Source of the DNA: Roseinatronobacter thiooxidans
GTDB lineage: Bacteria > Pseudomonadota > Alphaproteobacteria > Rhodobacterales > Rhodobacteraceae
Reading direction: 5' to 3'
NCBI RefSeq assembly: GCF_001870675.1
Contig: NZ_MEHT01000045.1
Span: forward strand, 124,001 to 188,000
DNA length: 64,000 nucleotides
Shown here: positions 5,291 to 11,154 of the stretch, piece after piece
Numbering within the stretch: position 1 is the stretch's first letter
Layout of the letters: the number at the start of each line of letters is the position of its first letter
The notes under the pieces: generated by a model
What the model was told of the DNA's origin: nothing
Databases searched by the model: none
The model's input: the letters and a program-made list of their open reading frames with translations, nothing else
Translations under genes and position numbers: made by a program

Positions 5291-6460
5291 TCAGGAATAC
5301 ACGCGCCGCGACAGCATATCACCAATTTCGCCCTGCGGGCGCGCCCGTGTAAATGCCAGAAGCATACCGATTGCCATGCCTGTCGCAAGCAAGGATGACC
5401 CGCCATAGGACACGAATGGCAAAGTCATGCCTTTGGACGGCAGCAGCCGCACAGCAACGCCCATATTGATCATGGCCTGTATCGAGAACATGATCACGAT
5501 CCCCGTGCCCGCCAGACGGATGAACGTGTCACGTTCGCGCATCAGCCGGAACAAGGAACGGGTCAGGATGGTCGCATACAACCCGATGATGAACAACACG
5601 AGGATCAGGCCATATTCTTCCGCCGCGACGGCGATGATAAAATCTGTATGCGCATCGGGCAGGTTCCATTTGACGCGCCCCTCGCCCACGCCGGTGCCGA
5701 AAAACCCGCCTTCCGAGATGGCATTTTGCGCATAGCCCATCTGGGTGCGCGGATCGACCTCGGCGGCAAGAAAGCCGTCAATGCGGCGGGCGAAATGCTC
5801 GGAGTTGTGATAGGCGGTATAGCCCCCTGCCAGCACCAGCCCCGCAAACCCCAACAAAAGGAACATGGGCGCGCCCGCGATGAAATACATCACCATCCAG
5901 CCTGCCGCGATCAAGGCCGCCTGCCCGAAATCCGGCTGGATAACCAAAAGCCCCAGCACCAGCATGGTAAACCCAAGCGACAGCGCCTGCCCCGGTGGCC
6001 CGTTAGGTTCGCGCCCTGCAGCCAGCAACCAAGCGGCAAAAACCGCCAGCATGGGTTTGAGAAACTCTGACGGCTGGAACGACCCGAACCCTAGACTGAA
6101 CCACCGCACAGCACCCTTGCCGAAATCCGTGCCAAAAAACGGCAGCAGCATCAGCGCCAGCAACGAGATGAAAAACCCCACAACTGCAAAGCGGCGAATA
6201 CGCTCGGGGGCGCACATGGACAGCAGGATCATTGCCACCACACCAAGGATGCCGAAAAACACCTGCCGTTGCACATAGTAGAACGGCGGCAGCCCGTTGC
6301 GCGTGGCCAGCGGCGGCGAAGCGGCCAGCCCCAGCAGCAAGCCAACCGCCATCAGCAACAACACCGATGTCAAGGTGACCTTGTCAATCGTGCGCCACCA
6401 GCGCGGGATAACAGGTTCCACCACACGCACAGGCGTGGTGCCATATACCATTTCCGTCAT
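5291..6460 (-). CDS. ftsW: peptidoglycan glycosyltransferase FtsW (SEDS family)
   Basis: A 389-residue polytopic inner-membrane protein of the SEDS family, which polymerises lipid II at the division septum with a class B penicillin-binding protein. About ten hydrophobic segments are visible after a roughly 25-residue cytoplasmic tail. Conserved motifs include [17 protein letters not shown], the long periplasmic loop with [16 protein letters not shown], and the C-terminal [16 protein letters not shown] 6460 has a GAGGCAG ribosome site. It is first of the ftsW-murG-murC set in this window; the 193 bases upstream to pdeM hold no gene I can support. Confidence 0.97.
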
Positions 6461-9907: not shown

Positions 9908-10558
9908 ATGCCCCCCGCAAACCTGCCCTGCCCTGTCTGTCTGGCTTTGCAAACGCGGGCCTTGGCGCGGATCGAGGGGCGCGATTACCGCGCCTGCACG
10001 GTCTGCGACGCGCGCTATCTGGACCCCGCGCATTATCCGACACGCGCGGCCGAACACGCCGAATACAGGTTGCATGACAACAATGTGGACGACCCGCGCT
10101 ACAGGCGCTTTCTGGCCAAACTGACCACGCCCTTGCTTGCGCGGCTCCCCTTCGGCGCGGTGGGGCTGGATTATGGCTGCGGCCCCGGCCCCGCGCTGGC
10201 GGCCATGCTACGCGCGGCGGGCCACCAGATGGCACTGTATGACCCGCTTTTCGCACCAGACCGCGCGGCGCTGGCGCAAAGCTATGATTTCATCACCTGC
10301 ACCGAAGTGGCCGAGCATTTCCACGCCCCTGTATCCGAATTTGCGCGATTGCGCGCCATGATCCGCCCCGGTGGGTGGCTGGCGATCATGACCTGCTTCC
10401 AGACCGATGACACGCAATTTGCCAACTGGCACTACCGCCGCGACATCACCCATGTGGTGTTTTACCGAGAGGCGACCTTGCGCTATCTGGCACAAAGCTG
10501 GGGCTGGCATTGCGATGTGCCGTGCAAGGATGTGGCCCTGCTACAGCGCCCCTTATGA
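9908..10558 (+). CDS. class I SAM-dependent methyltransferase with N-terminal zinc-ribbon-like motif
   Basis: A 216-residue protein. The first 35 residues carry two CxxC pairs (CPVC at 8-11 and CTVC near 34-37) that could bind zinc. The SAM-binding motif I is GLDYGCGPGPALA near residue 92, and the acidic post-I strand is followed by the TCTEVAEHF motif and RPGGWLAIMT. These are typical of the Methyltransf_23 group; the substrate is unknown. ATG 9908 was preferred to the upstream ATG at 9866 because the CPVC motif begins just after it, although no strong ribosome site is visible. The stop overlaps the start of the Hen1-like gene by 4 bases, so both are probably made together. Confidence 0.85.
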   Translation: MPPANLPCPVCLALQTRALARIEGRDYRACTVCDARYLDPAHYPTRAAEHAEYRLHDNNVDDPRYRRFLAKLTTPLLARLPFGAVGLDYGCGPGPALAAMLRAAGHQMALYDPLFAPDRAALAQSYDFITCTEVAEHFHAPVSEFARLRAMIRPGGWLAIMTCFQTDDTQFANWHYRRDITHVVFYREATLRYLAQSWGWHCDVPCKDVALLQRPL

Positions 10559-11154
10559 CCACATGGCTGCATATGGAGCGGATTGCCGCTGTTGAAGATG
10601 CGCTTGCGGGGTGCAACGCGCGCAGCGTGCTGGATTTGGGCTGCGGCGATGGGGATTTCTTTCTGCGGCTGGCCGCGCGGGCCGACATTACGCGCTTGGT
10701 GGGCATTGAAATCGATACAGGTGCCGTGACCCGCCTAGAGGGGCGCTTGCACGCCCAAGGCCATGCGCCCCACATTGAAATCAGGTCAGGATCAATCCTG
10801 TCACCTGCCCCGCAGCTGGCCGGTTTTGATTGCGCAGTCATGATCGAGGTGATCGAGCATCTGGACCCTGCCCATCTGTCGCAACTGGAACGCGCCTTGT
10901 TTCATGTGTTACGGCCCAGGCATATTATCCTGACCACCCCCAACGCGGAATTCAACCCGCTGCTGGGTGTGCCCGCCCACAGGTTCCGCCACCCCGGCCA
11001 CCGCTTTGAATGGAGCCGCGCGCGGTTCCGCGACTGGGGCACGCGCGTGGCGCAGCGCGGGCGCGCGCAAGTCAGCTTCGCCGATATCGGCGGGGCGCAC
11101 CCCACCCTTGGCGGGGCCAGCCAGATGGCGGTATTTGCGCTGAATGAAAGCTGA
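10555..11154 (+). CDS. Hen1-like RNA 3'-terminal ribose 2'-O-methyltransferase domain protein
   Basis: A 199-residue class I methyltransferase that looks like the isolated catalytic domain of bacterial Hen1. Motif I is VLDLGCGDGDFF (about residues 25-36). The Hen1-type metal ligands are suggested by IEVIEHLDP (Glu 98, Glu 101, His 102) and by the distal GHRFEW (His about 149), with LTTPNAEFN between them. Known bacterial Hen1 proteins act with Pnkp in RNA repair and are about 450 residues long; this one lacks the N-terminal half and no pnkp is nearby. It overlaps the previous methyltransferase by 4 bases. The RNA substrate is an inference from family resemblance. Confidence 0.8.
   Translation: MTTWLHMERIAAVEDALAGCNARSVLDLGCGDGDFFLRLAARADITRLVGIEIDTGAVTRLEGRLHAQGHAPHIEIRSGSILSPAPQLAGFDCAVMIEVIEHLDPAHLSQLERALFHVLRPRHIILTTPNAEFNPLLGVPAHRFRHPGHRFEWSRARFRDWGTRVAQRGRAQVSFADIGGAHPTLGGASQMAVFALNES

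Follow-up and report, generated by a model that had tools for sequence, protein, structure and literature searches.

The stretch of DNA analysed here (the window) comprises 64,000 nucleotides of contig NZ_MEHT01000045.1 of Roseinatronobacter thiooxidans, whose genome is assembled as 3.5 Mb in 50 contigs. It carries two overlapping methyltransferase genes. The first, MT1, encodes a class I S-adenosylmethionine (SAM) methyltransferase with an N-terminal zinc ribbon, while the second encodes a protein matching only the catalytic half of bacterial Hen1, referred to here as short Hen1. The two genes share an ATGA junction that places the start codon of the second within the 3' end of the first (Table 1). 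The Hen1 start at ATG 10555 has support from relatives, whose proteins open with M-T-[ST]-x-x-H at that position. No Pnkp gene adjoins the pair, and the overlap with a zinc-ribbon methyltransferase gene in place of pnkp agrees with the original prediction, which was made from the DNA sequence.

Table 1 Coordinates of the MT1–short Hen1 pair and its candidate metal sites in the window
Feature	Position	Strand	Evidence or description
MT1	9908..10558	+	216 aa, class I SAM methyltransferase (Methyltransf_23), N-terminal zinc ribbon; PF13489 E 1.9e-24
MT1 zinc ribbon C8, C11, C30, C33	9929..10006	+	Cys conservation in two alignments
MT1 EXXEH (E133, E136, H137), candidate metal ligands	10304..10318	+	invariant in 16 rows and in 30/30 rows
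MT1 distal H182, candidate metal ligand	10451-10453	+	invariant in 16 rows and in 30/30 rows
ATGA overlap, 4 bp	10555..10558	+	Hen1 start codon within MT1 3' end
Short Hen1	10555..11154	+	199 aa; TIGR04074 E 1.6e-54, 3jwj E 9e-37
Hen1 metal ligands E98, E101, H102 (EVIEH)	10846..10860	+	align with Hen1 metal site
Fourth Hen1 metal ligand H149 (GHRFEW)	10999..11001	+	aligns with Hen1 metal site

A Hen1 catalytic domain with its metal ligands

Sequence comparison confirmed the second protein as a true catalytic domain of Hen1 in which the set of metal ligands is complete. Its leading profile match is TIGR04074, the NCBIfam model of bacterial Hen1, for which it is the sole convincing match in the genome; the next-best family follows at 1e-6. 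The alignment is limited to profile positions 265-461 of 462, so that the predicted reduction to the catalytic half is borne out. With 185 bits against a curated cut-off of 340, which is set for the full-length protein, and with the N-terminal domain absent, the protein does not qualify as a full-length Hen1 equivalog. As a methyltransferase domain, it matches Hen1 above other methyltransferases by both profile and sequence. The PDB sequences it matches best, 3jwj and 3jwh (E ~1e-36), are methyltransferase domains of bacterial Hen1; bit scores are 130 for bacterial Hen1 versus 89 and 70 for the eukaryotic enzymes. A profile built from 30 short Hen1 rows gave E 3.2e-65 for 3jwj, 1e-45 for the human and 1.6e-41 for the plant protein.

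The AlphaFold2 model of short Hen1 (predicted local distance difference test, pLDDT, 95.1) superposes on 3jwh with a VIA Z of 28.5 and a root-mean-square deviation (rmsd) of 1.6 over 187 aligned residues. Values of VIA Z range from 24.2 to 28.5 across bacterial, plant and human Hen1 domains, with 20.0 for the Capnocytophaga Hen1 and 19.5 for the best fold outside Hen1.

The EVIEH and distal GHRFEW motifs noted in the original prediction supply E98, E101, H102 and H149, which align with the four ligands (E, E, H and a distal H) of the Hen1 metal site. The ligands known from plant and human HEN1, which in human HENMT1 are E132, E135, H136 and H181 (PMC10781085), correspond to these four residues of short Hen1. 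In an alignment of 85 rows (31 short and 54 other), E98, E101 and H149 are unchanged throughout, and H102 is present in all 54 other rows and in 30 of the 31 short ones. The exception, at L161 (3470-4012), has an internal deletion that removes H102; either this copy is decaying or its fragmented genome was misassembled here. Of 21 positions compared in the active site and the signature segments, all but H102 are identical throughout the short rows. They agree with the 54 long-clade rows, and the TPN...N and R...H-FEW-R..F..W segments are among them. For part of the rows this conservation is partly built in, since L049-L118 were selected by scanning for fixed peptide patterns that included [HR]P[GD]HRFEW; L049-L096 were used, whereas L097-L118, with E 5e-8 or worse, were dropped as weak matches. 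The rows that came from whole-genome searches are free of this bias.

A separate clade without Pnkp

The 31 short Hen1 rows form one clade (support 100/100), separate from the 54 long-clade rows, and short Hen1 is therefore no stray fragment. An N-terminal domain is present in 52 of the 54 long-clade rows; the other two, L063 and L074, look short because a contig start next to Pnkp truncates them, but group in the long clade and were counted there in the residue tallies. L058 likewise lies at a contig start, and the tree was built without L095. The named short rows belong to alpha-, beta- and gammaproteobacteria, with the addition of a single row from Gemmatimonadota, which lies at the start of its contig. 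In the window's family, 198 genomes yielded eight short Hen1 genes and one fragment. Plasmids contributed 23 matching records, mostly annotated as Hen1. Five phage records fall below 60% identity, two of them annotated as polynucleotide kinase, and viral contigs gave one remote relative (26% identity). A role in a defence system was considered and rejected; for short Hen1, PADLOC matched mad2 in part (E 8.7e-12) and MTase_II weakly.

A profile search of the 24 short-Hen1 genomes, the window's own included, found no Pnkp above the TIGR04075 cut-off, and no short-clade locus among 63 loci carries an N-terminal Hen1 domain or Pnkp. By this cut-off, neither operon nor genome holds the Pnkp of a Pnkp–Hen1 repair cassette. 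Weak partial matches occur in 21 of the 24 genomes, and likewise in 9 of 14 control genomes, but are confined to profile positions 3-406 of 851. None extends into the C-terminal half, which we take to be where the ligase lies. Piwi-domain proteins are absent from all 24 genomes, and Argonaute-linked small-RNA methylation was rejected on this ground.

These features set short Hen1 apart from the closest systems already described. With the Pnkp–Hen1 RNA repair cassette (TIGR04074/TIGR04075) it has in common the methyltransferase domain, the four metal ligands and the signature positions, whereas it lacks both the N-terminal ligase-activating domain and Pnkp, falls in its own clade and has another operon partner. 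As described in the available text of the 2015 study of Pnkp1-Rnl-Hen1 (PMC4411300), the Pnkp ligase is switched on by the N-terminal domain of Hen1, methylation comes after the ends are healed and before they are ligated in the bacterial systems known, and bacterial pnkp and hen1 always form one operon, save in ten species that have a different Hen1 and separate repair genes. The Capnocytophaga Pnkp1-Rnl-Hen1 complex (4xrp) resembles the present case in that its Hen1 does not adjoin a fused Pnkp; that Hen1, however, is a two-domain protein only remotely similar to short Hen1 (phmmer E 1.9e-5), and the same text has it working with Pnkp1 and Rnl. Eukaryotic HEN1/HENMT1 (3htx, 5wy0) provides a repair-free catalytic domain with the same ligands, although short Hen1 is nearer in sequence to bacterial Hen1 and its genomes are devoid of Piwi proteins. 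In the open-access literature searched, we came across no account of a clade of short Hen1s that lack Pnkp.

MT1 and its association with short Hen1

MT1 was found in 15 of 394 genomes of the window's family, compared with 19 of the 24 short-Hen1 genomes. Short Hen1 is present in 13 of these and adjacent to MT1 in 11, so the survey of gene neighbours supports the predicted pairing. In two genomes (G1079, G1030) short Hen1 is present but not adjacent, and two have none, one with an MT1 only 44% identical (G136) and one with MT1 cut by a contig end (G1104). All 12 pairs inspected from the family, including that of Rhodovulum (L049), keep the ATGA junction. A pair from another alphaproteobacterial family (L162) is without it, and in a Chromatiaceae locus (L053) the gene order is reversed. 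Seven of the 24 tree rows found by Hen1 searches have an adjacent MT1 or MT1 remnant; adjacency over all 31 rows would be inflated, because L155-L161 entered through the MT1 search. In a phylum-wide sample of 398 genomes, MT1 occurs in 37 and short Hen1 in five, with four genomes shared, three of them from one genus. Fisher tests of co-occurrence gave p 1e-5 for the family and p 3e-4 for the phylum; they ignore relatedness, count a contig-edge fragment (G037) as short Hen1 and assume that the 198-genome sample lies within the 394. The partnership of MT1 with short Hen1 is not accidental.

The MT1 sequences themselves show 43-69% identity in a 16-row alignment. C30 and C33 are invariant and C8 and C11 at least 90% conserved in these rows, and a second set, made up of the window and 29 other loci, keeps all four cysteines in each of its 30 rows. 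The histidines of the MT1 EXXEH...H pattern are separated by 45 residues, equal to the H136-H181 spacing of human HENMT1. UbiG/COQ3 has part of the EXXEH site and a proposed metal role, according to the available text of PMC9774615, and this partial sharing means that the pattern in MT1 points to common chemistry and not to RNA specificity. EVIEH is present in short Hen1 as predicted, but because EXXEH occurs in MT1 too, and partly in UbiG/COQ3, the motif alone is not a Hen1-specific mark.

The AlphaFold2 model of MT1 has a mean pLDDT of 90.4, and its best fold match, to the NDP-sugar C-methyltransferases, reaches a VIA Z of 18.3 (rmsd 3.1, 208 aligned). MT1 resembles UbiG/COQ3 and the zinc-ribbon NDP-sugar C-methyltransferases in core fold and EXXEH motif, at 14-22% sequence identity. 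It does not qualify as UbiG, scoring 21.7 bits with TIGR01983 against a cut-off of 102.95. Alignments to the sugar enzymes TcaB9, MtmC and KijD1 span the MT1 N-terminal region and match both zinc domain and Rossmann core. They extend over only about residues 8-269 of these ~400-residue proteins, so that MT1 is without their C-terminal domain and does not fit the family as a whole. The 25 families displayed for 15 members of MT1 include no Pfam model that is named for these C-methyltransferases.

Some relatives have a third gene, encoding a 239-aa protein, at the head of the operon. Examined as a candidate spermidine synthase, it has no Pfam match at E 1e-3 and no NCBIfam match at 1e-5, and weakly resembles polyamine aminopropyltransferases (E 0.006-0.05; PDB 6qmm, E 0.0058). 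The gene overlaps MT1 in L037, L156, L159 (where it is internally deleted) and L160, and in L165, where MT1 is missing, it overlaps short Hen1 directly. Eight of the 24 short-Hen1 genomes have a close copy, at E 2e-60 or better, and the window's own has none; at E 1e-40 the gene was found in one of 120 family genomes, which carries the operon. A Fisher value for the third gene depended on an assumed overlap between samples and was set aside. In Rhodovulum tesquicola (L049), short third-gene-like stretches (E 0.002) and the C-terminal part of MT1 precede an intact Hen1. In both L049 and L159 the partner genes decay first while Hen1 remains whole.

Proposed function and genomic setting

On balance, and with moderate confidence, we interpret the pair as a Pnkp-independent Hen1 module, in which an RNA 3'-terminal ribose 2'-O-methyltransferase would act with MT1. 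The family of short Hen1, its ligands, its separate clade, the absence of Pnkp, the gene overlap and the co-occurrence are directly established; metal-dependent 2'-O-methylation of the 3'-terminal ribose is inferred from homology. A Mn or Mg ion held by E98, E101, H102 and H149 would grip the 2',3'-diol of the 3'-terminal ribose, and short Hen1 would then methylate the 2'-O from SAM, leaving the RNA 3' end protected or marked, not repaired. The lack of both the ligase-unlocking domain and the Pnkp ligase suggests that short Hen1 would protect or mark RNA whose 3' diol is free. MT1, being translationally coupled, would be the functional partner, probably acting on the same substrate as short Hen1 or in a complex with it, and the aminopropyltransferase-like third gene may be an occasional extra member. 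The original proposal of a minimal RNA 3'-end module with a different partner therefore holds for the Hen1 domain, the missing Pnkp and the conserved, coupled partner, while an RNA 3' end is a presumed substrate.

More tentatively, and with some doubt on our part, Proteobacteria may possess a dedicated, repair-free system for 2'-O-methylation of RNA 3' ends, comparable to the mark that HEN1 places on small RNAs in eukaryotes. Short Hen1 and MT1, itself of the metal-dependent EXXEH type, would then act one after the other, or joined in a complex, on a single RNA belonging to the translation machinery. Such an RNA is hinted at by context only, namely the mnmA overlap of MT1 in one genome, the yihI, engB or hemN homologues close to MT1 in other proteobacteria, and the release factor 3 genes by short hen1 in two loci. 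A half-size Hen1 clade with neither Pnkp nor the ligase-activating domain would imply a bacterial 3'-terminal 2'-O-methyl mark outside ligation-coupled repair. The operon is small and clonable, and so offers a handle on what this mark protects, and MT1 is a second, uncharacterised enzyme travelling with it.

Several observations weigh against the Pnkp-independent Hen1 module. MT1 is absent from five of the 24 short-Hen1 genomes (G047, G154, G101, G083, G857), and its presence in the other 19 is partly by construction, as seven of the 24 were found via MT1, leaving an unbiased count of 12 of 17. In the phylum-wide genomes MT1 mostly occurs without Hen1, and the partnership is therefore not obligatory. 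The only PDB sequence matches of MT1 are to UbiG, its nearest folds are MtmC, TcaB9 and KijD1, all small-molecule enzymes, and the weak matches of the third gene are to polyamine aminopropyltransferases. Outside the operon the genes vary, and no single RNA pathway recurs. These similarities, above all the sugar-nucleotide methyltransferases among the fold neighbours of MT1, keep alive an explanation that we regard as unlikely, in which the three genes form a tailoring operon that modifies a nucleoside, a nucleotide-sugar or another diol metabolite, and for which the diol chemistry of the Hen1 fold would have been co-opted. The original prediction had named a best match to small-molecule methyltransferases as grounds for doubt, and this is what we see for MT1, though not for the Hen1 protein. 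Also consistent with tailoring are the strongest link of the HEN1 catalytic domain being to UbiG, in the available text of PMC1397878, and an MT1 that follows a WecB/TagA/CpsF-type glycosyltransferase gene (L170). Yet short Hen1 retains all those tested signature positions that are present in Pnkp-linked Hen1s, and no consistent biosynthetic neighbours are seen across genera.

Repair in trans, with short Hen1 methylating broken RNA ends and a kinase/phosphatase and ligase encoded elsewhere healing them, has a precedent in Capnocytophaga Pnkp1-Rnl-Hen1, where the ligase genes lie far from hen1 according to the available text of PMC4411300. We consider it improbable for the present clade, given that no Pnkp exceeded the cut-off in the 24 genomes and that the weak hits miss the C-terminal half; T4-type Rnl and RtcB were not searched for. 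Least credible of all is a degenerate relic of full-length Hen1 with no specific function, lying beside an unrelated methyltransferase. The half length of the protein and its patchy occurrence in the family would suit such decay, but a fully supported clade of 31 rows with invariant catalytic residues, and a coupling to MT1 that recurs, would not. The Pnkp-independent Hen1 module remains our preferred interpretation.

Around the pair in the window, profile searches identified a divergent upstream pair, a ligase-associated DEXH helicase (lhr-type) and PdeM (pdeM), and a downstream YcgN-family gene. The helicase/nuclease pair is thus present as the original prediction described, whereas the shared nucleic-acid role it suggested was rejected. 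In tblastn searches, homologues of the helicase, PdeM and YcgN occurred at none of the 63 relatives' loci, and among 36 further loci the only ones were the window locus's own two copies; these results apply to flanks of ~1.5-8 kb, less at contig ends, and do not cover distant linkage beyond them. Gene calls at the relatives' loci were home-made.

Among MT1 loci without Hen1, homologues of yihI, engB or hemN lie nearby in up to 14 of 30. In L169 (8332-9474), MT1 overlaps the end of mnmA (tRNA 2-thiouridine synthase). The operon of L037 is preceded by an RluE-like gene for an rRNA pseudouridine synthase (5314-5940), and a peptide chain release factor 3 gene is found close to short hen1 both in L046 (9840-11447) and in L053 (4304-5884). 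Marinobacter and its relatives (L055, L081, L167, L172) have a Na/H exchanger gene (TrkA-N domain) followed by short hen1, the two touching in three of the loci. Downstream in L081, on the opposite strand, are two genes, one for an ovothiol-type N1-methyltransferase (TIGR04345) and one that is EgtB/SenA-like; L166, L167 and L172 have similar-looking genes. Beside short hen1 or its fragment, L036 (8022-9361) and L045 (593-3789) carry putative ars-type regulator and arsenic export genes. Genes for a SulP transporter and a universal stress protein are found within about 5 kb of short hen1 in L034, L046, L049 and L156, a Comamonas plasmid included.
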